A stretch of 64,000 nucleotides of DNA from Candidatus Roizmanbacteria bacterium GW2011_GWC1_37_12 (GCA_000991135.1 LBST01000002.1:1-64000), one strand, 5' to 3'; shown: positions 21,942-64,000, numbered from the stretch's first letter. Numbers and translations are program-made. Notes: generated by a model not told the origin, from the sequence alone.

Positions 21942-22805
21942 ATGTTAATTGACGGTAAAAAGATTTCTTTATTCCTAGGAAAACAGGTAAAAAAAGAGGT
22001 CAAAAAACTGATAAAAAATAGACCGCTTCTCACGGTATTTTTGATCGGCGACGCTTCTGATCAAATTAGCTTTGTAAAAATCAAGTCCAATGTCGCCAAA
22101 AAATTAGGGATTGAATATAATCTAATTCATCTAAAAAATGTTCCCAACTTTATCAGCTTTGCCAACAGAATTAAAGAAGAAGTAAATAATTCTAAAGTTA
22201 CCGGTATAATTATTCAACAACCTCTTCCCGCCCAGTTGTCAACCGAGAGCATCTACGATTACATACCTCAAAAAAAAGAAATAGAAGGCCATCGAAAAAA
22301 ATTTATTTTTTATCCTCCGATAGGGTTAGCTGTTTTGACGATCATCAAGTATATTTTTTCCGGAAAAAAAATCGACAAAAGGCTTTTAGTGAATCTTAAC
22401 AAAGATCGTCATTTTTTCAAAAAAATTCTAAAAAATAAAAAGATTGTTTTGGTTGGCCGCGGCGCTACAGGAGGGAAACCTATCGGTCATATATTACAAG
22501 AAACAAAAATCAATTACATTAATGTAAATTCGCAAACCATCAATCCAGAGGAATATTTTAAAAGCGCCGACATTATCATCACCGCCGTTGGAAAAAAAAT
22601 AATCGATCCCTCGATGCTAAAACCAGGCGTTATCCTTATCAATGCGGGTCTTCGAAAAGAAAACGGAAAACTAAGAGGAGACTATGAGGAAAAAGAAATT
22701 AAAAATATCGCTTCGTATTATACTCCGACTCCTGGAGGCGTCGGCCCGATAGATGTCATATACCTATATAAGAATCTTGTTGACGCTGCTAAACTTCAGA
22801 AATGA
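21942..22805 (+). CDS. folD: FolD-like methylenetetrahydrofolate dehydrogenase/cyclohydrolase
   Basis: GIIIQQPLP, GRGATGGKPIGHIL, YTPTPGGVGPIDV motifs. Confidence 0.88.
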   Translation: MLIDGKKISLFLGKQVKKEVKKLIKNRPLLTVFLIGDASDQISFVKIKSNVAKKLGIEYNLIHLKNVPNFISFANRIKEEVNNSKVTGIIIQQPLPAQLSTESIYDYIPQKKEIEGHRKKFIFYPPIGLAVLTIIKYIFSGKKIDKRLLVNLNKDRHFFKKILKNKKIVLVGRGATGGKPIGHILQETKINYINVNSQTINPEEYFKSADIIITAVGKKIIDPSMLKPGVILINAGLRKENGKLRGDYEEKEIKNIASYYTPTPGGVGPIDVIYLYKNLVDAAKLQK

Positions 22806-49589: not shown

Positions 49590-50528
49590 ATGAAGCTAAA
49601 AAAACTTATTTCCATTGTCATTCCGATTTATAACGAATCACTAGTAATTCCGGAGTTGATCAAACGGCTGACAAATTTTATTAATAAAAATCCCAAATAT
49701 GAATTTGAAATTATTTTAGTCGAAAACGGCTCCGAAGACGAATCTTTCAAACTATTAAAAAAATACACCGGGTTGGATAAAAGGTTTAAAGTGCTTCAGC
49801 TTTCTAAAAATTTTGGCTGCGACGGCGGCATCATTGCCGGTATGCGTTTTGCCAAAGGCGACGCCTGCGTAATCATGATGGCTGACCTCCAGGAACCAGT
49901 AGAACTGATTTTTGACTTTATTAAAAAATGGGAACAGGGATATGAAATCGTTTACGGCATCGTCAAAAAAAGGACAGCCGGATTATTGAGAAATTTGAAT
50001 TCGCGCCTTTTTTACAAAATAATAAATTCGCTGACCAATAATATGTTTCCTGAAAACGCCAGCGACTTCAGATTAATAGACAAAAAGGTTTATGAAACGA
50101 TAAACAGTATGGGCGAACAAAATAAATATTTAAGGGGACTTGTCATCTGGACAGGTTTTAAACATATCGGTATTCCATTCAACCGAGCAAAAAGATTTGC
50201 CGGAGAATCAAAAGCAGATTTTAAAACAGCCCTTTATGTAGCTTTAAATGGAATATTTTCTTTTTCCTATCTTCCTTTGAGGCTGGTCTCGGTACTCGGG
50301 GTCGCCATCACTTTTATCTCGGTTATTCTTATCGTCGTCTACCTCTATCTTTATTTTGTCCACGGCCGAGAAGCCCCGGGAGCCGCGACGATGATCCTTC
50401 TTACTTTGAGCTTGTTCGGAATTCTTTTCTTTGTCCTAGGAATTATTAGTGAGTATTTGGCCAGGATTTACGACGAAGTAAAAAGTCGACCAACTTATAT
50501 AGTAAAAAATAAGGTAAATTTAACATGA
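49590..50528 (+). CDS. Glycosyltransferase family 2 (GtrB/DPM-like, C-terminal TM)
   Basis: ISIVIPIYNESLVIPELIKRL; MMADLQEPVELI; two C-terminal TM segments. Start placed at ATG 49590. Confidence 0.92.
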   Translation: MKLKKLISIVIPIYNESLVIPELIKRLTNFINKNPKYEFEIILVENGSEDESFKLLKKYTGLDKRFKVLQLSKNFGCDGGIIAGMRFAKGDACVIMMADLQEPVELIFDFIKKWEQGYEIVYGIVKKRTAGLLRNLNSRLFYKIINSLTNNMFPENASDFRLIDKKVYETINSMGEQNKYLRGLVIWTGFKHIGIPFNRAKRFAGESKADFKTALYVALNGIFSFSYLPLRLVSVLGVAITFISVILIVVYLYLYFVHGREAPGAATMILLTLSLFGILFFVLGIISEYLARIYDEVKSRPTYIVKNKVNLT

Positions 50529-51706
50529 AAAATTCTAGCCCGCCGTTTTCAAAACAACTAGACGCCTTAAAAGCCGAAGGCGCTTACGCCGTCTTGAATA
50601 AAGCCACTAAGCTCGAAACGGAGGGAAAAAAGATTATCCATTTTGAGATCGGCCAACCGGATTTTCCAACGCCCCAAAATATTACATCAGCAGCAATTAG
50701 CGCTCTTAAAAAAGGACTCACCAAATATAATGCACCGCTTGGGATCATGCCGCTTCGGAGAAGAATCGCCCAGGGATTAAACGAAACAAAAAATATATCG
50801 GTCTCCGAAAACAATATTGCCGTTACTCCTTCCGGAAAGACGGCAATTTTTGTCGCTATGTCTTCTATTCTTGAAAAAGGAGACGAAGTGATCCATCCCG
50901 ACCCAGGCTTTCCCACCTACAGATCTCTTATTGATTTTCTGTCATGCAAACCGAAACCGATTCCGCTTCTTGAAGAAACCGGTTTTAGTTTCGACATGAA
51001 GATTTTCAAGAAAAATTTTTCAAAAAAAACCAAGCTCGTTATCTTGAATTCTCCAAGCAATCCAACAGGAGGGATTATCAAATTAGAGGATCTGGAAGAA
51101 ATTAGAGAGATGGTCAAAAAAACAAATTGTTGGGTAATGACTGATGAAATGTATTCTAAAATCATCTATGATGGTATAAAATATCCAAGTTTTTATAGCT
51201 TCAAGAGTCTCCATCATCAAACAATTCTCGTCGACGGATTTTCCAAGACGTTTTCGATGACCGGCTGGAGAATCGGCTATCTTTCGGCACCGGCGTCACT
51301 GATCGAAAAAATAGATTATTTTCTGACTCATACAGTAGGCTGCACGGCTACCTTTACCCAGTACGCCGTCTTGGAAGGACTGAACGGCCCTCAAAATCAG
51401 GTGAAAAAAATGGTCAAGGAATTTGAGAAGCGAAGAAACTTTGTCGTTTCCGAACTAAATAAAATCAAAGGCATCAAGTGCCAAATTCCACAAGGAGCTT
51501 TTTATGTATTTCCCAATATAAAATCATTTAAAAAGTCATCAAAATGGATTGCTAACTATCTTCTTGAGGAGGCCGGTGTCGCTCTTCTTGACGGAACTTC
51601 TTTTGGAAAATACGGTGAAGGATATCTTAGAATCTCGTATGCGACGAGTATGGAAAATTTAAAAGAAGGAATTGATAGAATTAAAAAGGGGCTAAATAAT
51701 TTATGA
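50525..51706 (+). CDS. Class I/II PLP-dependent aminotransferase (AspAT-like)
   Basis: LNSPSNPTGGIIKLEDLEEI, DGFSKTFSMTGWRIGYLSAP, GEGYLRISYA. Confidence 0.94.
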   Translation: MKNSSPPFSKQLDALKAEGAYAVLNKATKLETEGKKIIHFEIGQPDFPTPQNITSAAISALKKGLTKYNAPLGIMPLRRRIAQGLNETKNISVSENNIAVTPSGKTAIFVAMSSILEKGDEVIHPDPGFPTYRSLIDFLSCKPKPIPLLEETGFSFDMKIFKKNFSKKTKLVILNSPSNPTGGIIKLEDLEEIREMVKKTNCWVMTDEMYSKIIYDGIKYPSFYSFKSLHHQTILVDGFSKTFSMTGWRIGYLSAPASLIEKIDYFLTHTVGCTATFTQYAVLEGLNGPQNQVKKMVKEFEKRRNFVVSELNKIKGIKCQIPQGAFYVFPNIKSFKKSSKWIANYLLEEAGVALLDGTSFGKYGEGYLRISYATSMENLKEGIDRIKKGLNNL

Positions 51707-53487
51707 GAATTGCTGATTACATTATCGATTACATTTACAAAAATGGGACTGACACCATTTTTACCTTGGCTGGCGGTGGAGCGATGTTTTTGAACGACGC
51801 CGTAGCTTGTCATAAAAAAATGAAATATGTCTGTAATCATCATGAACAAGCTTCGGCTATGGCCGCCGAGGCTTATGCCAAGACAAACCAGGGCATAGGC
51901 GCCGTTATGGTAACTTCAGGACCGGGGTCAACCAACGCAATCACCGGGTTACTTGAAGCCTGGCAGAATTCTATTCCCGTTATCTTTATCTCGAGCCAAG
52001 CCAAAAAATCGCAGATGACTCATTTTTCCGGTCTTCCCATCCGCCAGTTTGGTATCCAGGAATTAGACATTATTCCCATCGTCAGGCCGTTGACAAAGTA
52101 CGCCGATTATGTTGAAAAACCAGAAGAAATCCGCTTTAAAATTGAAAAAGCCTACCAAGAGATGTTATCTGGCAGGCCTGGACCAGTCTGGCTCGACATC
52201 CCTCCTGACGTCGCGAGCCAGAGCATCGACCCGGAAAAACTACCTGGATTTGTAGACAAAAAAACACCCAATAGTCTACCTAAAATTTCCACTCGGGAGA
52301 TCGGTTTGGTAATAAATTTATTAAATAGAGCGCGAAAACCAATCATCATCGCCGGCGGCGGAATAAAATTGGCAAAAGCAGTTTCGGAATTCAGAGCCTT
52401 AGTCAACATTTTAAAAATTCCTGTAGTCGTCCCGGAGATGGGAATTGATCTTTTGGAAAACAATCATCCTTGCTATGCTGGCCATGGAGGAACAAAGGGA
52501 GATCGAGCCGGAAACATCGTCATTCAAAACAGCGATCTAATTTTGGCAATCGGCAGCAGGCTCTCTGTTTCTTTTACCGGGCACGAATTTGACAAATATG
52601 CGCCGAGATCTGTAAAAATCGTTATCGACGTCGATGAAAAAGAGCACCAGAAAAAAACAGTTAAAATCAACCATCTTATTATTTCCGACGCCAAATATTT
52701 TATTGAGGAAATGATCAAAAATAAGCAAAAACTGATAGATAATAAAAATGTCTGGTTGAAGAAATGCCAAATAATTAAAAATAAATATGGTTTATATCTA
52801 CCCAAGATTAAAGATAAAAATGGCGAAATCAGCATGTACCACATCGTCGATACTATTTCTAAACTGTCTCGACCCGGTGATTTTTTTATCACCGACGCCG
52901 GAGTGACTGCCTACATCGCCGTCCAAACTTTGAAATTCAAAAAAAACCAAAGGATGATTATTCCCGGAGCCACTCTGACCATGGGCTATAATCTGCCGGC
53001 AATCCTTGGCGTCTGGGCTGCCAATAAAAACGCCAGGATAATCTGCATTACCGGCGACGGGTCGCTCCAGATGAACATCCATGAACTGGGGACGATCGCT
53101 TATCACAAAATTCCGGCAAAAATATTCGTCATCAATAATCATGGTTATCTGGCGATCCGCACGACTCAAAAAAATTTTTTCCAATCAAGACTGATCGGAG
53201 AGGGGAGTGGCTCCGGAGTCTATCTACCCAGTTCCCAAAAAATCGCTCAAGCTTATGGTTATAAATATGTCAGAATAAAAAATTACAAAGAACTATCTAA
53301 GATAAAACAAGTAATGAAGGAAAAATCAGCGGTTATCTGCGAGGTCTTTAGTCCTTATTGGCAGGATGTTCTAACTGTCTCTTCGAAGAAAATGCCCGAT
53401 GGGAAAATGGTCTCGCTGCCTATAGACGATATGTATCCGTTCCTACCTGAAGAGGAAATGAAACAAATTAGGCAGTCTCTCAAATAG
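51703..53487 (+). CDS. ThDP-dependent acetolactate synthase-like enzyme
   Basis: NHHEQASAMAAEAYAKTN (catalytic Glu), TSGPGSTNAITGL, ITGDGSLQMNIHELGTIAYHKIPAKIFVINN (ThDP motif). Confidence 0.93.
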   Translation: MRIADYIIDYIYKNGTDTIFTLAGGGAMFLNDAVACHKKMKYVCNHHEQASAMAAEAYAKTNQGIGAVMVTSGPGSTNAITGLLEAWQNSIPVIFISSQAKKSQMTHFSGLPIRQFGIQELDIIPIVRPLTKYADYVEKPEEIRFKIEKAYQEMLSGRPGPVWLDIPPDVASQSIDPEKLPGFVDKKTPNSLPKISTREIGLVINLLNRARKPIIIAGGGIKLAKAVSEFRALVNILKIPVVVPEMGIDLLENNHPCYAGHGGTKGDRAGNIVIQNSDLILAIGSRLSVSFTGHEFDKYAPRSVKIVIDVDEKEHQKKTVKINHLIISDAKYFIEEMIKNKQKLIDNKNVWLKKCQIIKNKYGLYLPKIKDKNGEISMYHIVDTISKLSRPGDFFITDAGVTAYIAVQTLKFKKNQRMIIPGATLTMGYNLPAILGVWAANKNARIICITGDGSLQMNIHELGTIAYHKIPAKIFVINNHGYLAIRTTQKNFFQSRLIGEGSGSGVYLPSSQKIAQAYGYKYVRIKNYKELSKIKQVMKEKSAVICEVFSPYWQDVLTVSSKKMPDGKMVSLPIDDMYPFLPEEEMKQIRQSLK

Positions 53488-54556
53488 CTATATATCCCTT
53501 CTTTATAAGTAATTCTGCTAATAATATTGCGCCTCCGGCTGCCCCTCTTACCGTATTATGAGACAGGCCAATAAACCGCCAGTCAAATATTTTGTCTTCT
53601 CTTAGTCTTCCCATTGTGATTCCCATTCCGTTTTCAAATTCTCTTTCACTTTCTGTTTGAGGACGATCTGGTTCGTTAAAATATTTTATGAATTGCTTAG
53701 GTGAAGACGGAAGGTTTAATTTTTTTAATGGATTAAAGTTTGTAACGGCTTTTATGATCTGCGATTTTGTTGGTTTTTTAGCAAACTTTACCGTAACTGC
53801 TGCCATATGACCGTTTGTCAGCGGCACCCTGATGCAATTAGCCGAAATCAGCGGCTTCTTGGCCAAAACAATTTTCCTTTTTTCTACTTTTCCCCATATC
53901 TTCATTGGCTCCTGTTCTGATTTTTCTTCCTCATCGCCGATGTAAGGAATGACGTTGTCAACCATTTCCGGCCACATTTTAAAGTTTTTTCCCGACCCCG
54001 AAATCGCCTGCATGCTCGTGACTACCACTCTCGTCGGCTTGTACTTCATTAAAGGAGTTAGAATAGAAACGTAAGACTGAATTGAACAGTTCGGTTTGAC
54101 GGCAATCAACCCCTTTTTCCAGCCTCTTATCTTCCTCTGTATGTCGATTAATTTAAGATGATTAAAATTGATTTCGGGCATGACCATCGGCACATCTTCT
54201 GTAAAACGGTGAGCGGAATTATTTGAAACGACTGGAATACCGACTTCTGCATAATTTATTTCTAGTTTTTTTATTTGCTTCTTGTCTAAATCCAAGGCGC
54301 TGAAAATTAAATCAACTTTGTTTCTGATTTTCTTTATGTTATAAACCGAATAAACCATCATCTGCTTGACAGTGTCTGGAATCGGTCTATCTATCCGCCA
54401 TCTGTCACCAAGAGCTTTAAAATAGGTCTTTCCGGCCGATTGAGGAGAAGCGGCAAGGCAACTGATTTCAAACCAGGGATGTTGTGACAGAATTGAAATA
54501 AATCTTTGTCCGACCATACCAGTCGCCCCTAGTATTCCTACCCTGAATTTTTTCAT
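53480..54556 (-). CDS. asd: Aspartate-semialdehyde dehydrogenase
   Basis: VGILGATGMVGQRFISILSQHPWFEI; VKPNCSIQSYVSIL; MQAISGSG. Confidence 0.93.
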   Translation of the reverse strand: MKKFRVGILGATGMVGQRFISILSQHPWFEISCLAASPQSAGKTYFKALGDRWRIDRPIPDTVKQMMVYSVYNIKKIRNKVDLIFSALDLDKKQIKKLEINYAEVGIPVVSNNSAHRFTEDVPMVMPEINFNHLKLIDIQRKIRGWKKGLIAVKPNCSIQSYVSILTPLMKYKPTRVVVTSMQAISGSGKNFKMWPEMVDNVIPYIGDEEEKSEQEPMKIWGKVEKRKIVLAKKPLISANCIRVPLTNGHMAAVTVKFAKKPTKSQIIKAVTNFNPLKKLNLPSSPKQFIKYFNEPDRPQTESEREFENGMGITMGRLREDKIFDWRFIGLSHNTVRGAAGGAILLAELLIKKGYIAI

Positions 54557-55536
54557 AAACTAACAATTTTAATAACTCTTAATAGATCTCCAAAAATGCC
54601 TCCGGCAGTCACTTGCGGACCAGCGCCCGGGCCTTTAATGACCAATGGATTTTTTGAATAGTTCTTGGTTTTGATGACGGCGATATTATCCGGACCGTCA
54701 AGTTGACCTACGTCGCTTTCTAAATCGGCTTCTGTTAGACCGACAGAACAACTTCTTTTGTTTACTTTTGCAACAAAACGTAACGTCTTCTTGTTTTTTT
54801 TGGACCGATTCATCATTTTATTATACTTTTTATCCAATAACGTTATCTTCTTCATAAAATCATTAACCGATAAATTACTCAACTTTTGAGGAAAGAGCGG
54901 AGTTATCTTAATATCTTCTAAAGATATCTTACTGTCAATTAGCCTAGCTAAAATTAAAGCTTTTCTAGCTACATCTAATCCTGACAGATCATCTCTAGGG
55001 TCAGGTTCGGTAAAGCCTTTTTCTTTGGCTTCAAAAACCGCCTGGGAAAATTTCCTGCCTTTTTGTAAAAGGCTGAAAATATATCCCAAAGTACCTGAAA
55101 AACAACCTTGAATTTCCAAAATTTCATCACCACTTTCTATTAACTCTCTAATTGTGTTAATAATCGGCAGTCCAGCTCCGACCGTCGTCTCGAAAAACAA
55201 TTTATTTCTGTAACGAAATAAAGAGTCGAAAGTCTTTTGATTGGAGGCGAGTGGTTTTTTATTTGACATGACGACAAATCCGCCTTTTCTTAGAGCTTTC
55301 CCGATGGCTGTAGTTGTTTTATCCGAGGCGGTTGTATCAATAAAAACCAGAGGCAGGGGAGCGGCGGTGATCCTTTCCTTTACGGTAATATCATTTGATT
55401 TGGAATCAAAAACAGCTAAAATCTTAAGTCTAATATTATATTGCTTTTCAATTTTAACTTTATTGGTCGTAAGTTGATCAAGAAAAGTTTTCCCAACGCG
55501 ACCTGGTCCCAGGTGTATTATATTTAAGGTTCTCAT
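54553..55536 (-). CDS. hom: Homoserine dehydrogenase (no ACT domain apparent)
   Basis: NIIHLGPGRVGKTFLDQL; FETTVGAGLPIINTIRELIESGDEI; GCFSGTLGYIF; DPRDDLSGLDVARKALILAR. Confidence 0.93.
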   Translation of the reverse strand: MRTLNIIHLGPGRVGKTFLDQLTTNKVKIEKQYNIRLKILAVFDSKSNDITVKERITAAPLPLVFIDTTASDKTTTAIGKALRKGGFVVMSNKKPLASNQKTFDSLFRYRNKLFFETTVGAGLPIINTIRELIESGDEILEIQGCFSGTLGYIFSLLQKGRKFSQAVFEAKEKGFTEPDPRDDLSGLDVARKALILARLIDSKISLEDIKITPLFPQKLSNLSVNDFMKKITLLDKKYNKMMNRSKKNKKTLRFVAKVNKRSCSVGLTEADLESDVGQLDGPDNIAVIKTKNYSKNPLVIKGPGAGPQVTAGGIFGDLLRVIKIVSL

Positions 55537-55547
55537 ATTAATAAAAG

Positions 55548-56444
55548 TTAACTTGAAACGATTGTTCCTTTATCTCCTGGATTCAGAAAACTTTTCACAA
55601 AGATCGGAATATTCTTTTTCCTAACCGGTTCAACGGCTTTGTGATAGATGATTTTTGCTCCTTTTTTTGCCAGACTTTTGGCTTTGCTGTATGTAAGCTT
55701 GTCGTACTTGATCGCTTGTGTATTTTTATTTGGATCTTTGTCATAAAAACCGCTGACGTCTTTCCACAAGTAAAGAGCCTCTGCTCCTAAAAGATTGGAT
55801 AAATAAGCAGCTGATAGATCGCTCCCGCCGCGCCCCAAAGTCGTTGTGCAGCCGTCGTGGGTAAAACCAATATAGCCGGTAACAACCGGAATAACGTTAT
55901 TTTTAATTAAAGGAACCAAAATCTCGTTTATATGATGTTGGCTTTTTTTATAAAGGGGAATGGCGTTATTGAAGTTATTATTTGTAGCGACGATGTAGGA
56001 AGCATCGATCGAATGGGCAATTACTCCGTTCATCTCTAAAGCATCAACGACAACAGAACACGATAATCTTTCTCCGAAAGAAACGATAAAATCGACTCTC
56101 GCCGGAGTAATTTTTTTTTGCGAGACGTTTTTGATAAAAGTTATCAATCGGCTGATTAGATTAATTATATCCGACTCAACTTTAACTGCTTGCGGTCTTC
56201 TGTCAAACTTATATAATACCTTGATGTGCTGTTTTTTTATCTTCTCTACTAACTCCAGGGATTCTTTGATTTTTTTGTTTTTTAAATAATCAGACACTTG
56301 AAACAGTTGATCGGTCACTCCTTTCATCGCCGAAACGACCAGGATTATTTTATTTTTTTTCCGGTATTTTTTTACAATTTGGCAGGCTTTTAATATTCCA
56401 TCCGCAGTTGATAACGAAGCCCCTCCGAATTTCATTACTATCAT
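55548..56444 (-). CDS. Aspartate kinase catalytic domain (no ACT domain apparent)
   Basis: MIVMKFGGASLS; FIVSFGERLSCSVV; TTTLGRGGSDLSAAYLS; LWKDVSGFYDKDPN; 298 aa. Confidence 0.93.
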   Translation of the reverse strand: MIVMKFGGASLSTADGILKACQIVKKYRKKNKIILVVSAMKGVTDQLFQVSDYLKNKKIKESLELVEKIKKQHIKVLYKFDRRPQAVKVESDIINLISRLITFIKNVSQKKITPARVDFIVSFGERLSCSVVVDALEMNGVIAHSIDASYIVATNNNFNNAIPLYKKSQHHINEILVPLIKNNVIPVVTGYIGFTHDGCTTTLGRGGSDLSAAYLSNLLGAEALYLWKDVSGFYDKDPNKNTQAIKYDKLTYSKAKSLAKKGAKIIYHKAVEPVRKKNIPIFVKSFLNPGDKGTIVSS

Positions 56445-57397
56445 CTACTTATTTTACCATCTTTAATATTAGTCGTACTTTCCACAATATACATCGGCCT
56501 GGCTTTTGTTTCCTCAACAATCACTTGAATGTATTTTCCGAGAATACTTATTGCCAAAAGCAAAATTCCTCCGAAAAAGAAAATTGCGAGCATGAGCGGA
56601 ATCGAAGCCTGTATCGGATTACCAAAAACTATAACCCAATACAAATACCCAGTAATAAATAAAAATGAGACAAAAGTTAAAAAAAAGCCTCCATACACCA
56701 TTAAATCTAATAAAAAATATGAAAATCCGAATAATCCTCTTTCGGCGTGATGCAAATAATCAAAGAAATTATAAGAGCTTTTTCCGTAAAGTCTTTTTTT
56801 TCTTTCGTAAGAAATAAAAGCTCTTTTGAATCCAACCCAAGACAATATGCCGCGACCGAAACGATATTTCTCTGGAAGCTTCCGCATCGCCAATAATACT
56901 TTTCTATCAAATAATCCAAATCCAGTTGAATCCGCAGGAATATCTATAAAACTTATTTTTTTTTGAATTAAATAATAAAGTTTTCTTATCGATTTCATCA
57001 TTAAATTATCAGAAGTTTTTTTATAGACTCCTAAAACCACATTATATCCTTGCTCCCATTTTTTAATAAATTTGGGAATCATTTCCGACGGCTCTTGTAA
57101 ATCAGCCGGAATACCAACGATTGCGTCACCAATTGCATGATCATAAGCAGCGTGACCAGAAGATTCCGGCCCGAAGTTTCTAGACAAAAAAATACCTTTT
57201 ACTTTTTTATCTTTACTGGCTATTTTATTTATTAGTTGCTTTGTTTTATCAAAACTGCCATTATCAACAAAAATAAATTCATAATCATAATTCTTTAATT
57301 TCTTCATCACTCTTGTCAAAGAGTGATAGGCAATAACGACATTAGTTTCTTCGTTGTAACAGGGAATGCAGATGGATATTTTTTTCATTTTTGTCAT
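56441..57397 (-). CDS. Glycosyltransferase family 2 (GtrB/DPM-like)
   Basis: ISICIPCYNEETNVVIAYHSL; PADLQEPSEMI; C-terminal TM pair. Confidence 0.93.
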   Translation of the reverse strand: MTKMKKISICIPCYNEETNVVIAYHSLTRVMKKLKNYDYEFIFVDNGSFDKTKQLINKIASKDKKVKGIFLSRNFGPESSGHAAYDHAIGDAIVGIPADLQEPSEMIPKFIKKWEQGYNVVLGVYKKTSDNLMMKSIRKLYYLIQKKISFIDIPADSTGFGLFDRKVLLAMRKLPEKYRFGRGILSWVGFKRAFISYERKKRLYGKSSYNFFDYLHHAERGLFGFSYFLLDLMVYGGFFLTFVSFLFITGYLYWVIVFGNPIQASIPLMLAIFFFGGILLLAISILGKYIQVIVEETKARPMYIVESTTNIKDGKISR

Positions 57398-57410: not shown

Positions 57411-58337
57411 TCAGTAATTGTTTTTCCTTTCCCGTAATATTTTTGAGTTTGGAAAAATAACAAAAAAATTCTTTTTTTCCACCATTAGTTTTTTTTCTTC
57501 ATCGGTATATAGATACTCGACTATTTTTTCTCTTTCTCTAGCTCCTGTTATTTTTATCTTTACCTTTTTACCTTTACCGTATTTCTTAATCGTTTCCTTG
57601 GCAAAATCGTAGATATTTTTTTCCGGCATTTTTAAAACAAAAACTTCCTGACCTTTCATTTTTGATGCTGCCAGTATTATTAATTCAACCGCTTCAGGAA
57701 TTGTCATAAAAAATCTTTTCATATTTTTATTGGTAACTGTAACTGATTTTCCTTTTTCTATCTGTTCAATCCATAAAGGAACAACTGATCCTCTTGAGTT
57801 AAGTACATTGCCGAAACGAACGACACAGAATTTTGTCCTTGATTTTCCTATGTAGTAGCTTGAGGAAACTATCATTCTTTCCATCATTAGTTTGCTTATT
57901 CCCATAATTGTGTTTGGATTAACAGCTTTATCTGTTGATATGGCAACGACTTTTTCCACATTATGCTCTATTGAAAGATCAATGACGTTTTGGGTTCCAT
58001 AAATATTAGTCTTAATCGTTTCAAAAGGATTATATTCACAATAAGGAACATGTTTCAAAGCAGCGGCGTGAAAAACAATATCAACGTCTCTGAATGCTTT
58101 ATCTAGTCTTTCTTTATCACGGATGTCTCCGATTAAAAATTTAACGTCGATCTTTGTTCCAATTTCTTCAATTTCCTTTTGAAGAAAAAAATGTTTTGAT
58201 TCATCTCTCGAATAAATTCTCACTTGCTTCGGGAGATAATTTTTTATTATATAACGAACTATTTCGCTGCCGATTGAACCAGTTCCACCACTAATCAAAA
58301 TATTCTTTTTGTAAAAAATTCTTTTTAGTTTTTTCAT
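57411..58337 (-). CDS. UDP-GlcNAc 4,6-dehydratase-like SDR (PseB/CapD type)
   Basis: ILISGGTGSIGSEIVRYI; ALKHVPYCEYNPFETIKTNIYGTQNV; STDKAVNPNTIMGISKLMMER. Confidence 0.92.
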   Translation of the reverse strand: MKKLKRIFYKKNILISGGTGSIGSEIVRYIIKNYLPKQVRIYSRDESKHFFLQKEIEEIGTKIDVKFLIGDIRDKERLDKAFRDVDIVFHAAALKHVPYCEYNPFETIKTNIYGTQNVIDLSIEHNVEKVVAISTDKAVNPNTIMGISKLMMERMIVSSSYYIGKSRTKFCVVRFGNVLNSRGSVVPLWIEQIEKGKSVTVTNKNMKRFFMTIPEAVELIILAASKMKGQEVFVLKMPEKNIYDFAKETIKKYGKGKKVKIKITGAREREKIVEYLYTDEEKKLMVEKKNFFVIFPNSKILRERKNNY

Positions 58338-59446
58338 TTTAAGATTTTTTCAATTTCCATACAAATATACTTGACCTGCTTTTCCTTTAAACCTATATAT
58401 AGAGGTAAAGCTAGCGTTTCAGAAGAGATTTTTTCGGCGATGGGAAAATCACCTTTTTTAAAATTAAATTCCTTTTTCATAAAAGGCTGAAGATGAATCA
58501 CCGGCAGATATGGTTTGGTTTGTATACCTTTTTCAGCCAACTTTTTCATTAAAAAGTTTCTCCTATTATTCAAGACTCTAACGACATAAACAAACCATGT
58601 GTGGGTTCGATCTTTTCCGATTTGAGGAATAATTAGTTTTTTGTTTTCTGAAAGATAACGATTATACAGATTAATGATCTTCTTTCTTTCATTAATCATC
58701 CAATCTAATTTTTCAAGTTGAGTTATTCCTAGGGCCGCACTCATTTCATCCATTCGGTAGTTATAACCCAATCTTTCATGTATTAACCAATCGTTCTTTA
58801 GATTTCTTCCTTGATTTTTTAAACTTTTAATCATTAAGTCAATTTTCTTATTATTTGTAACAACAATTCCACCTTCACCAGTAGTCATCTGTTTATTTGG
58901 GTAGAACGCAAACACACCGATCTCTCCAAAAGTTCCAGTCATCTTGTTTCTGTATTTGGCTCCTAGACTTTCACAAGCATCTTCAATTATCTTTAATTTT
59001 TTCTTTTTGGCGATTTCTAAAATGGGCGTCATGTCCGCCGACTGACCAAATATATGAACCACCAAAATCGCTTTTGTTCTTTTGGTTATCGCTTTTACTA
59101 TCTTTTCCGGATCTATATTATAGGTAGTTTCTTCAATATCGACAAAGACTGGTTTGACTCTTTCAAATAACAAACAGTTAGATGAAGATACAAACGAAAA
59201 AGGAGTTGTAATCACTTCGTCTCCTTCCTTCAAACCTAATGATTTCACTGCCAAATGTAATCCGACAGTACCATTACTTACCGAACTAGCATATTTTGAC
59301 CGGCAATACTTAGCTATTTTCTTTTCAAATTCAAGATGTTTTGGTCCCAAGGATAGATAGCCTGACTCCAAGACGTCAATAACAGCTTTTTTGTCTTTTT
59401 TGTCGATATAGGGTGAGGCTATTTTGATGCTAACTTGGGCTAACAT
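58334..59446 (-). CDS. DegT/DnrJ/EryC1/StrS aminotransferase (PseC/LegC-like)
   Basis: SVSNGTVGLHLAVKSLGLKEGDEVITTPFSFVSSSN; EDACESLGAKY; FYPNKQMTTGEGG (PLP Lys present). Confidence 0.93.
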   Translation of the reverse strand: MLAQVSIKIASPYIDKKDKKAVIDVLESGYLSLGPKHLEFEKKIAKYCRSKYASSVSNGTVGLHLAVKSLGLKEGDEVITTPFSFVSSSNCLLFERVKPVFVDIEETTYNIDPEKIVKAITKRTKAILVVHIFGQSADMTPILEIAKKKKLKIIEDACESLGAKYRNKMTGTFGEIGVFAFYPNKQMTTGEGGIVVTNNKKIDLMIKSLKNQGRNLKNDWLIHERLGYNYRMDEMSAALGITQLEKLDWMINERKKIINLYNRYLSENKKLIIPQIGKDRTHTWFVYVVRVLNNRRNFLMKKLAEKGIQTKPYLPVIHLQPFMKKEFNFKKGDFPIAEKISSETLALPLYIGLKEKQVKYICMEIEKILK

Positions 59447-59466
59447 AATTTCTTACTGTATTATAG

Positions 59467-60237
59467 TTATTTTTTAGCATTATTCAACTTCTTGTTAATA
59501 AAGGACAAAGTCTCTTGATTGACTAAGGTAAACTTTTCATCTTTTATTTTTATATAGGCTCCGGAATAAGGAGGAAAGAAAAATGCTCTAATTTTTTTGT
59601 TAATGATATTGGTTTTTTTTGTTTTTAAATCAACTTTTTTCATCTTTTCCAGCTGGTCGGAGCTGACATAGATTCCACCTTTGTTTTTAATTGTATTAAT
59701 TTTTGATTCTAGATTCAGCTTTTCTAAAGTATCTTTAAAGAGCAAAAACAACTGTTTTTGGGATTTTTCTTCAAGTGTATAGGCATTTTCATTTTCATCT
59801 ATTGGGAATTCAGTTACTTTTATGATCGGACCGGCATCAAATCTTTCATCTGTTATATAATGGGCGCTGACTCCGTATTTTTTTCTACCGTCTAAAATTG
59901 CCGTATTATAACCAGCTCTTCCTTTATAATCAGGGAGTGGGGCAGGGTGAAAATTGATACAACCGTATCGGGGCAAATCTATTAAAGGTTGTTTTATTCT
60001 TCGCCAATAAAGATACGAAACTACCAAATCAATATTGGCAATCTTTTGGCTTTTCTTGCTTATCAGAGAATAGAGTGTTTTGTCATTCGTCTCAACAGGA
60101 ATTCCATAACAATACCTAAGACTGTCAAGAATAACGTATTTAATTGTGTATCCTTCACATAATAAATATTTTATCGCCTCATAAGCCAAAGGTTTTCTTC
60201 CTAAAAAAACAATATTTTTTATTTTCATATTGCTCAA
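59467..60237 (-). CDS. Formyltransferase-family protein (sugar N-formyltransferase-like)
   Basis: CINFHPAPLPDYKGRAGYNTAILDGRKKYGVSAHYITDERFDAGPIIKV. Confidence 0.88.
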   Translation of the reverse strand: MSNMKIKNIVFLGRKPLAYEAIKYLLCEGYTIKYVILDSLRYCYGIPVETNDKTLYSLISKKSQKIANIDLVVSYLYWRRIKQPLIDLPRYGCINFHPAPLPDYKGRAGYNTAILDGRKKYGVSAHYITDERFDAGPIIKVTEFPIDENENAYTLEEKSQKQLFLLFKDTLEKLNLESKINTIKNKGGIYVSSDQLEKMKKVDLKTKKTNIINKKIRAFFFPPYSGAYIKIKDEKFTLVNQETLSFINKKLNNAKK

Positions 60238-61379
60238 TAACTTATTTGCTTATTCCAAAGTTTTTCATCAAGTCTTATTCTTTCCAAAACATTGGAAATT
60301 CTAAAGCCGGCTTTTCCGTCACCCCAGGGATTTTTTATTTTTTTTATTTTCTCTAAAAATACTTTATTTGACTGACATTTTTCTATTACCTTTATTATTT
60401 CTTTTCTTTTAAAATCAACATCAATAACATTTTCCGCCTTTATTCTTCCTTCCTGTCTTTTGCCCAAATTAACAACTGGTTTATGAAATGATGCTGACTC
60501 AATTACTCCGGCGCTGCTGTTTGTCACCCAAACCAAAGCATGTCTTTCCAGTGAGATAAAAGTTTCTCTATCGACGTTGGGAAAAATTCTAAAAAAAGGG
60601 TTCTTTTTTTCTTTGTCAATAGTTTTTATTATTTCTTTACTTCCTGGATCGGCGTTTGGGTATATGAAAACGACTGGAGTCTTAAAGTATTTAACAGCAG
60701 CTACGGTTTCTTTTATCTGATCACTAACATTTTTTATTTCCTCAAAAACTGGATGCTGCCAAACAAGAAGATATTTATCCGAATTATTCAACCTAAGAAA
60801 TTTCATTAATCTATCTCTGTCCATAGTTTTTTCACTCAAAATGTTATCCAGCCCAGGAGCACCTACATTAAAGATCCTCCAATCTTCCTCTCCCATTCTT
60901 TTTACTCGGTCGGCCGCATCGTCAGTAGCAACAAAATGAAGATGAGATAGTTTTGTTATTGCGTGCCGCGCTACTTCATCGATATGGCGAGTCTTGTCTC
61001 CGCCGTGTATATGGGCAATAGGTATTTTAAAATAAAGAGCAACCATTGCTGTTGCAAGCATTTCTATTCTGTCGCCTAAAACAATGACAATATCAGGTTT
61101 GTTTTTCAAAAAAACTTTGACCAGATTTTCTGTAAAATCCTTCAAAAACAGATTCATGCTGTTTGACCCGCTCTTGTCAAAACTGGCTGATATTGTTTTT
61201 GCGAAAGGGTATTGCTTTTTTATGAGATTTTCGCTTTTTCCATGCTTTTCCATGAGGTGAAGACCGGTATAATATAGTTGAAGATCAAGAAATTTACTTT
61301 TGATAATATGGTCAAGTACAGATGTCATTAAACCAAAATCCATTCGGCCGCCTGATATATAAGCGATCTTCTTTTTCAT
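60234..61379 (-). CDS. UDP-N-acetylglucosamine 2-epimerase, hydrolysing (NeuC/LegG-like)
   Basis: SGGRMDFGLM; VLGDRIEMLATAMVAL; IAHIHGGDKTRHIDEVARHAITKLSHLHF; VTNSSAGVIESA. Confidence 0.93.
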   Translation of the reverse strand: MKKKIAYISGGRMDFGLMTSVLDHIIKSKFLDLQLYYTGLHLMEKHGKSENLIKKQYPFAKTISASFDKSGSNSMNLFLKDFTENLVKVFLKNKPDIVIVLGDRIEMLATAMVALYFKIPIAHIHGGDKTRHIDEVARHAITKLSHLHFVATDDAADRVKRMGEEDWRIFNVGAPGLDNILSEKTMDRDRLMKFLRLNNSDKYLLVWQHPVFEEIKNVSDQIKETVAAVKYFKTPVVFIYPNADPGSKEIIKTIDKEKKNPFFRIFPNVDRETFISLERHALVWVTNSSAGVIESASFHKPVVNLGKRQEGRIKAENVIDVDFKRKEIIKVIEKCQSNKVFLEKIKKIKNPWGDGKAGFRISNVLERIRLDEKLWNKQISY

Positions 61380-61383
61380 AAAT

Positions 61384-62442
61384 TTATTTAAAGTCAGAAT
61401 TAGATATTTGTTGATCCAATTTGACGGATTTTTTCAATACTTTTCCTACGTAATTTTTGAAGTATAAAGTGGGTATTCCATTACCAGGTCTTTTTCCCTC
61501 AATATCTTCAAATGTAATTTTTTTGCCTTTTTTAAAATCTCGGCTATAGACTAGACTCCGTCTTACCATTTTTATATACTGTTTTTCGCTTTTCCTTGGT
61601 CTTTTTATCGGATTACCCATTATTAAAGCTGATTTCCTGATTGCATCAATTCTTGATTTTGCTTCTATCGGATCAGCCGAGGCAACTTGATCCGGTCCAG
61701 GCATTTTCTTATCCAAAGTAATATGAAATTCATATACTGCCATTCCTAGTGCTGAAGCCATGGTTGCCACTTGGTTGCCTTCACTATGATCAGAATAACC
61801 AACCGGTACGTCAAGTTTTTTCATCAAAGTGACCATAGCATTTAAGTCAACCTCGTCCGGTTTACAGGGGTAATTGGTCGTACAGTGCAACACAACAATC
61901 TTATTGTTTCCGTAGGATTTAATAAATTTAACAGCATCAACTACTTCTTTTAAGGTCGCCATTCCTGTAGACAGGATTATCGGCTTTTTTAGTCTTGCCA
62001 ACTTATCGAAAAGAACATAGTTAGTCAAATTTCCAGAATCTATCTTATACAACTCCACCCCTAATGACTCTAGTAAATCTACGCTTTTCTTTCCTCCATG
62101 AGGAGTCGAAAAAAAAATGATTCCTTTTTCTTTACATCTTTTAATAATTGGTCTATAAAATTCTTCTGGAAGCTCCAATTTCTTTAGCATTGCTCTTTGA
62201 CTTTCGGATTTACCCAGGTTCTTTTTCTGATACTCAGCCATTTCTGCCTTTTCAGTTGCTAACTCCTCGGCTCTAAAAGTCTGAAATTTAACAGCGTCGG
62301 CGCCGATTTCGGCCGCCATATCAACTAGTCTTAAAGCAAGATCTAAACGCCCGTTGTGGTTGACTCCGGCTTCAGCAATTACAAAAACTCTACCTCCTTC
62401 TTTGATTAGATGGTTTTTTATCCTAAAGGTTTTTTTTATCAT
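61384..62442 (-). CDS. N-acetylneuraminate/legionaminate synthase family (NeuB/LegI-like)
   Basis: VIAEAGVNHNGRLDLALRLVDMAAEIGADAVKFQTF; LHCTTNYPC; GYSDHSEG; C-terminal SAF domain. Confidence 0.94.
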   Translation of the reverse strand: MIKKTFRIKNHLIKEGGRVFVIAEAGVNHNGRLDLALRLVDMAAEIGADAVKFQTFRAEELATEKAEMAEYQKKNLGKSESQRAMLKKLELPEEFYRPIIKRCKEKGIIFFSTPHGGKKSVDLLESLGVELYKIDSGNLTNYVLFDKLARLKKPIILSTGMATLKEVVDAVKFIKSYGNNKIVVLHCTTNYPCKPDEVDLNAMVTLMKKLDVPVGYSDHSEGNQVATMASALGMAVYEFHITLDKKMPGPDQVASADPIEAKSRIDAIRKSALIMGNPIKRPRKSEKQYIKMVRRSLVYSRDFKKGKKITFEDIEGKRPGNGIPTLYFKNYVGKVLKKSVKLDQQISNSDFK

Positions 62443-62461: not shown

Positions 62462-63346
62462 TTAACTTTTAGTCTTGCTCCTTTCTAAAAATTCGTCTTT
62501 TATAACTGCTTTTTTATCAAGTTCACTTAATCTAGTTTTAAAATACTCATAAAATTTTCTGATCGAATCTTCATAAGAAGTAATTTTGAGGGAGGGGATT
62601 GTTTCCATCAGCTTTTGATTGCTGCCCGTATATTGATAATTTAATTCTCTATTGATTACCGTTACTTTTGACGGTTTTTTGGATATTTTGTTTATTAATT
62701 TAATAATTTGAGTTAGTCTGATTGACTCGGTCGATGAGATATTGAAATCACCGGACACTTTTTGATTTTTCAGGAAAAACTTCATGATTGGAATTAAATC
62801 CTTAATATATAGATAATCAAATATCACGTCCTGTTTAATTTTTATCGGCAGACCCAAAAGATTTTTTGCGATAGAATTGGCAATAAATTTGAATCGGTAA
62901 TCTTCGCCTGGCCCGAAGATGCCGAAAGGAAGCAGGGTAGTGATTTTTTTATTTCCTTTTGATAATTGGCTGCAAATCAATTTACCCAAACCGTAATTAT
63001 CTTGGGGGATAAACTTTCCCAGTTCGTTCTCTTTTACCTTTTTTAAATCCCGGGTTTTTGCATATTCTGCTCCCGAGCCGAAGTTGATAAATTTATCCAG
63101 CAGATCAAGATTATTATAAATCGATATAAACATCCGCAAAATATTTTCAAGAACTTGGTCGCCTCCTTTGACAGCAGTGTGAATAATAACTTTAATTTTA
63201 TTTTTCTTGATGTAATTTCTAAGGGCTACAGAATCCCTAATATCCAATTCACTATGACGAGGAGTAAAAATTTTATAGTCGTTTTTCAGTCCTTCAATCA
63301 AATTGCTTCCGATAAATCCGGTGCCGCCGGTTATTAAAATATTCAT
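62462..63346 (-). CDS. NAD-dependent epimerase/dehydratase (GDP-fucose synthase/RmlD-like)
   Basis: ILITGGTGFIGSNLIEGL; NYGLGKLICSQL; FDYLYIKDLIPIM. Confidence 0.88.
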   Translation of the reverse strand: MNILITGGTGFIGSNLIEGLKNDYKIFTPRHSELDIRDSVALRNYIKKNKIKVIIHTAVKGGDQVLENILRMFISIYNNLDLLDKFINFGSGAEYAKTRDLKKVKENELGKFIPQDNYGLGKLICSQLSKGNKKITTLLPFGIFGPGEDYRFKFIANSIAKNLLGLPIKIKQDVIFDYLYIKDLIPIMKFFLKNQKVSGDFNISSTESIRLTQIIKLINKISKKPSKVTVINRELNYQYTGSNQKLMETIPSLKITSYEDSIRKFYEYFKTRLSELDKKAVIKDEFLERSKTKS

Positions 63347-63347
63347 A

Positions 63348-63995
63348 TTATTTAAAAAAAGTCATGTTTTTTTTTAATTCTTCTCTAGATAATAATGGCC
63401 AGAGATCTTCAAGCGGTCGCGATTTTAACTGACCATCTTTATTACGATAGGTGACGGATTTTGGAATTCTTGGTTGATCAAAGGCAATATTGACTTCATA
63501 CAGTGTCGGTCCTTTAAATTCCAACGCTTCTGAAATTTTCTTTTTTAGTTCTTCATTGTTTTTTATATATCCGTATTTCAGATTGTATCCTTCTGAAATT
63601 TTTTTAAAATTTGGGTTTTGGACTCCTGATGTTTCATCGGCGCCGACCAATCTTCCCTCAAAAAGATTGTTCTGCGTATCTCTTATGGATTTATATCCTT
63701 TATTGCTAAAAACAAAGATCTTAATAGGTAATCGATAGTAATCTATCGTATTTAACTCTTGGATATTAAATTGAATACTTCCGTCACCGGTCACGCAAAC
63801 TGTTCTTGATTTTTTATTTCCGACACAGGCACCGATTGTCAAAGGTAGACACCAACCCATACCGCCGAAGTGTTTGTTGGCAAATGCGCGTTGGCCTTTT
63901 TTTATTTTAAATGCCTGATAAAAAGCAACGACATCCTGGCCGATTCCAGTTGTTAAAACATCAGTTGGATTCGTTATGTCTGATAAAACATCCAT
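63348..63995 (-). CDS. ThDP-dependent acetolactate synthase-like enzyme (C-terminal part; N-terminus beyond window)
   Basis: VTGDGSIQFNIQELNTIDYYRLPIKIFVFSN ThDP motif; C-terminus resembles 51703-53487 product. Confidence 0.85.
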   Translation of the reverse strand: MDVLSDITNPTDVLTTGIGQDVVAFYQAFKIKKGQRAFANKHFGGMGWCLPLTIGACVGNKKSRTVCVTGDGSIQFNIQELNTIDYYRLPIKIFVFSNKGYKSIRDTQNNLFEGRLVGADETSGVQNPNFKKISEGYNLKYGYIKNNEELKKKISEALEFKGPTLYEVNIAFDQPRIPKSVTYRNKDGQLKSRPLEDLWPLLSREELKKNMTFFK

Positions 63996-64000
63996 GAATA

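Follow-up and report, generated by a model that had tools for sequence, protein, structure and literature searches.

A predicted sugar N-formyltransferase in the acetyltransferase slot of a putative legionaminic-type nonulosonate cluster from Candidatus Roizmanbacteria

Which acyl group is placed on a sialic-acid-like sugar when its biosynthetic genes include a formyltransferase at the position of the usual acetyltransferase? The question is raised by a stretch of 64,000 nucleotides (hereafter, the window) from Candidatus Roizmanbacteria bacterium GW2011_GWC1_37_12 (GCA_000991135.1, LBST01000002.1:1-64000), where five minus-strand genes packed closely together encode a synthase of NeuB/LegI type, an epimerase of NeuC/LegG type, a formyltransferase (FT), an aminotransferase of the DegT family and a 4,6-dehydratase (PF02719). 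We propose, with a probability of roughly 0.72, that the product is a legionaminic-type nonulosonic acid acetylated on the C5 nitrogen and formylated on the C7 nitrogen (5-acetamido-7-formamido), the acyl slot being exchangeable among relatives. The genome (G000) is represented by 18 contigs totalling 994,505 bases, an assembly 94% complete in which the window contig runs to position 88,885; listed genomes of its phylum span about 0.5-1.8 Mb, most of them near 1 Mb, as would suit a Patescibacteria/CPR lineage.

The gene cluster and its formyltransferase

The five genes lie, in order, at 61384-62442 (nonulosonate synthase; 352 aa, NeuB (PF03102) and SAF domains), 60234-61379 (hydrolysing 2-epimerase; 381 aa, TIGR03568), 59467-60237 (predicted sugar N-formyltransferase in the acyltransferase slot; 256 aa, PF00551), 58334-59446 (DegT/DnrJ/EryC1 sugar aminotransferase, assigned the LegC/PglE/PseC role; PF01041) and 57411-58337 (soluble PF02719 UDP-GlcNAc 4,6-dehydratase; 308 aa). 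The initial annotation had read these as a single-strand series in pathway order; its reading frames, coordinates and listed order all hold, but transcription runs opposite to the chemistry, with the synthase first and the dehydratase last. The FT and epimerase genes overlap by 4 bp, as do those of the dehydratase and aminotransferase, and 20 bp separate the aminotransferase from the FT; because the genes overlap or almost touch, a single transcript is likely. Beyond the dehydratase the run is extended by a minus-strand GT2 gene (56441-57397), identified by family search as PgfS/ArnC-like and resembling polyprenyl-phosphate-sugar transferases, which probably belongs to the same operon.

The FT matches PF00551 (E 8.5e-20) and starts at a TTG codon or at an in-frame ATG three codons downstream. 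Its catalytic residues N95, H97 and D134 (numbered as in the window protein) are invariant in all 15 aligned FTs, and its AlphaFold model (predicted local distance difference test, pLDDT, 84; predicted template modelling score, pTM, 0.84) finds among its best structural matches WbkC, which acts on GDP-perosamine, as well as Rv3404c, ArnA and a Francisella 4-N-formyltransferase; Met-tRNA formyltransferases rank only slightly lower. Fold and N-H-D triad together predict a sugar N-formyltransferase. We rejected assignment as the Met-tRNA enzyme: the protein scores 85 against the TIGR00460 cut-off of 201.5 and branches away from fmt-like sequences, and the tRNA role is further excluded because a separate fmt-type gene lies on contig C14. 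That gene, together with FolD in the window but outside the cluster (22428-22799, plus strand; PF02882 match), shows a formyl-folate economy, with FolD serving supply of the donor, 10-formyl-tetrahydrofolate (10-formyl-THF).

The acyl slot in related clusters

We compared G000 with five other genomes of the class that carry the same cluster (G062, G277, G256, G534 and G593). Writing AT for aminotransferase and DH for dehydratase, with the slot gene in parentheses, G062 has the order NeuB-NeuC-(NeuD/PglD acetyltransferase)-AT-DH-GT2, its slot gene scoring 169.1 bits with TIGR03570 (cut-off 160.8); in G277 the order is NeuB-NeuC-(hexapeptide acetyltransferase fused to AT)-DH; G256 has NeuB-x-NeuC-(132-aa hexapeptide acetyltransferase)-AT-DH; and G534 has NeuB-FT2-NeuC-PIG-L-(137-aa hexapeptide acetyltransferase)-AT-DH. 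The fifth, G593, is arranged as NeuB-NeuC-(FT)-AT-DH, with a slot FT 47-50% identical to that of the window. That other genomes repeat this gene order, at 41-69% identity between core proteins, shows that the cluster is no chance arrangement; relative to G000, identities are 50-69% for G062, G277, G593 and, except for NeuC (41%), G534, and 41-48% for the G256 proteins, with the window NeuB 46-61% identical to those of the partner clusters. The GT2 of G062, in the same position as that of the window, is 64% identical. Because syntenic clusters hold either an acetyltransferase (G062, G277, G256, G534) or an FT (G593) at this position, synteny strongly backs the earlier proposal that the FT stands in the acetyltransferase slot. 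Among the other same-genus genomes searched, NeuB was found in none.

The slot and the core have different histories. In the FT tree, the window and G593 proteins are sisters (support 99/96), whereas a concatenated tree of four core genes pairs G000 with G062 (100/100) and G534 with G593 (96/96), and a clade uniting the two FT clusters is rejected for the core genes (approximately unbiased (AU) test, p 1.6e-10); the core tree covers six clusters only, G256 forms a long branch, and the constrained grouping was defined by gene content. The FT sisterhood against these differing core pairings means that the slot gene has travelled separately from the core genes. Judged from gene content and trees, the acyl slot is an apparently exchangeable cassette, with an FT and two kinds of acetyltransferase in one position.

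Two of the relatives carry further genes of note. The G534 cluster, which retains its hexapeptide acetyltransferase, also encodes an additional FT resembling ArnA and a deacetylase of PIG-L type (L108:9796-12350), by analogy with Halorubrum a candidate pair for swapping the N5 acetyl for a formyl group. In G593, genes for HisF-like and HisH-like proteins and a WbuX N-acetyl sugar amidotransferase adjoin the FT-type cluster (L109:10291-15075), which suggests that the sugar made by this cluster, or a neighbouring one, bears an acetimidoyl group.

Proposed pathway and type of sugar

In the pathway we propose, whose enzyme families are established and whose substrates we infer, the dehydratase would convert UDP-GlcNAc to a 4-keto-6-deoxy sugar, from which the aminotransferase would make UDP-4-amino-4,6-dideoxy-GlcNAc. 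The FT would then formylate N4 with 10-formyl-THF as donor, N4 being the site acetylated in other bacteria (the LegH/PglD step), after which the NeuC/LegG enzyme would remove UDP by hydrolysis and invert C2. NeuB would condense the resulting 2-acetamido-4-formamido-2,4,6-trideoxy-mannose with phosphoenolpyruvate (PEP), and CMP-sugar activation would fall to an enzyme for which the assembly yielded no gene.

The core enzymes bear on the type of sugar. NeuB scores 399.3 bits with TIGR03569, against a cut-off of 399.65, and 265.5 with the PseI model, i.e., 134 bits lower. The epimerase scores 383 bits with TIGR03568 (cut-off 235.9), as a hydrolysing C2-epimerase of the NeuC/LegG family and not PseG; among solved structures it comes closest to the GDP/UDP-N,N'-diacetylbacillosamine 2-epimerase (5zlr/5xvs), with human GNE ranking behind. 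The aminotransferase (PF01041, E 2.8e-119; pyridoxal phosphate lysine within PNKQMTTGEGG) has perosamine-synthase-like enzymes as its closest solved structures, ahead of the 2fn6-type enzyme, which we take to be H. pylori PseC. A pseudaminic pathway is ruled out by the NeuC type and the NeuB score, and the NeuC and NeuB models favour a sugar of Leg/Neu type; taken with the aminotransferase matches, they argue for a legionaminic-type product.

Alternative products

Several points weigh against a 7-formamido legionaminic-type product. The first is that the dehydratase (PF02719, E 7e-103) is closer to CapE, WbjB and FlaA1 than to PglF, so that the enzyme might invert C5 of the hexose, which becomes C8 of the product. 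The same formyl-for-acetyl swap would then yield a C8-epimer (8-epi-legionaminic-type) 7-formamido acid or another stereoisomer. In keeping with this, the top-scoring relatives are Pen-like proteins, CapE, WbjB and FlaA1, several of them 5-epimerising, and the protein carries a CapE-like STDKA...MGISK motif, its triad being T-x9-M-x3-K (STDKAVNPNTIMGISK). The aminotransferase, on the other hand, is nearer to perosamine-type enzymes than to PseC. Furthermore, SpsM of B. subtilis and CapE share the window's triad, and SpsM, despite a CapE-like predicted structure, serves legionaminic acid with C5 retained and can be functionally replaced by the retaining PglF but not by PseB (PMC7439481). The motif occurs in retaining and inverting enzymes alike, and kinship of the dehydratase does not decide the C5 outcome; we regard inversion as unlikely, if a serious contender. 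Methionine versus tyrosine in the motif was dropped as a test for retention, as both CapE and SpsM also carry methionine.

A second point concerns the FT subfamily, whose substrate need not be uniform, given that some orthologs adjoin PglD or a PIG-L deacetylase. Orthologs about 40% identical to the window FT occur in Bacillaceae, Erysipelotrichaceae, Lachnospiraceae and one Longimicrobiaceae metagenome-assembled genome (MAG). At two Lachnospiraceae loci the FT occurs together with NeuB and NeuC, with a CMP-transferase at one of them; the Bacillaceae loci instead show a PglF-like dehydratase, an aminotransferase and a PglC-like transferase, with no PglD visible and no NeuB. To judge from these neighbours, the Bacillaceae loci fit UDP-4-amino-4,6-dideoxy-GlcNAc as the FT substrate, though this is suggestive only. 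Loci L041 and L050 also carry PglD. The window FT might thus act on another amino sugar—for example, in making a formylated bacillosamine that the GT2 or a sugar-phosphate transferase would load directly onto a lipid carrier—leaving the 7-amino group of the nonulosonate free or otherwise acetylated. While the Bacillaceae neighbourhoods and the ArnC/PgfS-like GT2 adjacent in the window would accord with such a role, the FT sits between NeuC and the aminotransferase, at the acetyltransferase position of syntenic clusters, in two separate genomes, and no second acyltransferase is nearby; we therefore consider it improbable.

Other formyltransferase genes were noted in passing. Genes of PIG-L type lie near FT orthologs at L044, L045, L049 and L053 (Erysipelotrichaceae) and L047 (Lachnospira), an assignment confirmed by Pfam for L053 only and made by the look of the sequence for L044, L045, L047 and L049; these neighbours suggest deacetylation followed by formylation of another sugar in Erysipelotrichaceae and Lachnospira. 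A putative viral contig from IMG/VR encodes an FT of the same subfamily as that of the window (L056:8001-8657), along with aminotransferase and short-chain dehydrogenase/reductase (SDR) genes. A different synthase-formyltransferase pairing is seen in G184 (L078:9122-10766), where a NeuB-like gene stands immediately before one for a divergent FT of only 170 aa.

A third point is that our acetyltransferase search could miss an enzyme that is divergent or encoded in the absent ~6% of the genome. It recovered no LegH/PglD/NeuD or GNAT acetyltransferase in or near the G000 cluster and no NeuD/PglD match over cut-off genome-wide, in agreement with the initial annotation, which had seen no acetyltransferase here; two GNATs on contig C6 and a WcaF-like protein on C13 are all remote from the cluster. 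Were one of these distant enzymes to acetylate N7, the FT could formylate N5, much as in Halorubrum, which has an N-formyl-legionaminic acid, a candidate FT gene adjoining legG and LegH elsewhere (PMC6137143). N5 is, however, already acetylated in the GlcNAc precursor, the window cluster has no PIG-L-type deacetylase, unlike that of G534, and the slot position favours the 4-amino group of the hexose. An N5-formyl product is accordingly one to which we give very little credence.

The last point is the absence of a CMP-nonulosonate synthetase from the 94%-complete G000 assembly, as searched with PF02348, TIGR03584 and a seven-sequence profile. The initial annotation was right to place this gene outside the window, as none is found among the window genes, but its expectation of one past position 64,000 or elsewhere was not borne out, either to the contig end (88,885) or in the 994-kb assembly. 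The G062 assembly (93% complete) likewise lacks a PF02348 CMP-transferase, whereas in G277, G256, G534 and G593 such a gene lies close to the cluster. Weak PF02348 matches were to a UTP-glucose-1-phosphate uridylyltransferase-like reading frame (C18) and a GlmU-like one (C6), neither of them a CMP-transferase. An RfbF-like cytidylyltransferase (L002:7750-8529) was also rejected as a substitute, as it scores as a glucose-1-phosphate enzyme and as the RfbF-like gene of G049 accompanies thiamine pyrophosphate (TPP) enzyme and SDR genes. The simplest cause of the absence is incomplete assembly; that the G000/G062 sub-lineage does without a canonical PF02348 CMP-synthetase in activating or transferring its nonulosonate is conceivable but doubtful. 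The GT2 next to the dehydratase is common to G000 and G062, and in the other four clusters none was seen in that position.

Flanking genes

On the synthase side of the cluster, an SDR and a TPP enzyme adjoin RfbF/RfbG-type CDP-sugar genes (window 62462-63998 and L002:1348-8529), with relatives in G062 and G049; together these have the look of a module for a branched CDP-sugar, set alongside the nonulosonate genes. On the other side, the window encodes an AspC-like aminotransferase and TPP-dependent enzyme pair (50525-53487), a similar-looking pair standing beside the G534 nonulosonate cluster (L108:1-2648). Genes read as aspartate-semialdehyde dehydrogenase, homoserine dehydrogenase and aspartate kinase (53480-56444) also lie within this sugar locus of a small-genome bacterium.

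Significance and comparison with known systems

If true, a 5-acetamido-7-formamido product would add 7-N-formyl-legionaminic-type acids to the sialic-acid-like sugars of ultra-small-genome bacteria, and bring an FT subfamily distinct from PseJ into sialic-acid-like sugar pathways. The comparison of clusters also shows the N-acyl step as a swappable cassette (FT, NeuD/PglD or small hexapeptide acetyltransferase) moving apart from the pathway core, which makes the choice of acyl group predictable from genome sequence and testable by gene swaps in one pathway. Our literature search, with subscription journals outside its reach, found no paper on 7-N-formyl-legionaminic acid.

One close parallel is the CMP-legionaminic acid pathway (LegB-C-H-G-I-F; the GDP route of Campylobacter and the SpsM-C-D-G-E-F UDP route of Bacillus subtilis), with which the window shares a dehydratase, aminotransferase, N-acyl transfer, hydrolysing 2-epimerase and NeuB-type synthase; it differs in having an FT for the LegH/SpsD acetyltransferase and no CMP-transferase found in the assembly. 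The replacement of acetyl by formyl is not unprecedented, as PseJ and the Halorubrum sugar attest. In the route to 7-N-formyl-pseudaminic acid, the folate-dependent formyltransferase PseJ reportedly replaces PseH on the UDP-4-amino intermediate, a likeness in that such an enzyme again stands in place of an acetyltransferase. The window FT is nevertheless distant from the enzyme of PDB entries 6ci2/6ci4, named "formyltransferase PseJ" (E 6e-8 with a single sequence, 1.7e-11 with a profile), other sugar FTs being no farther and many FTs ranking above PseJ, and its partners are of NeuC and NeuB rather than PseG/PseI type. 7-Formamido pseudaminic acid is a known natural sugar (PMC3210612). In a published sugar cluster of Geobacillus, fmt3 replaces fdtC, so that an FT holds the acetyltransferase position (PMC5109656), there in a dTDP-linked amino-6-deoxy-galactose pathway and here in a nonulosonate cluster. 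Finally, Halorubrum sp. PV6 resembles the window in its N-formylated legionaminic acid and putative FT gene beside legG; its formyl group is assigned to N5, LegH is present and the role of the FT is putative (PMC6137143), whereas the window FT replaces the acetyltransferase gene.

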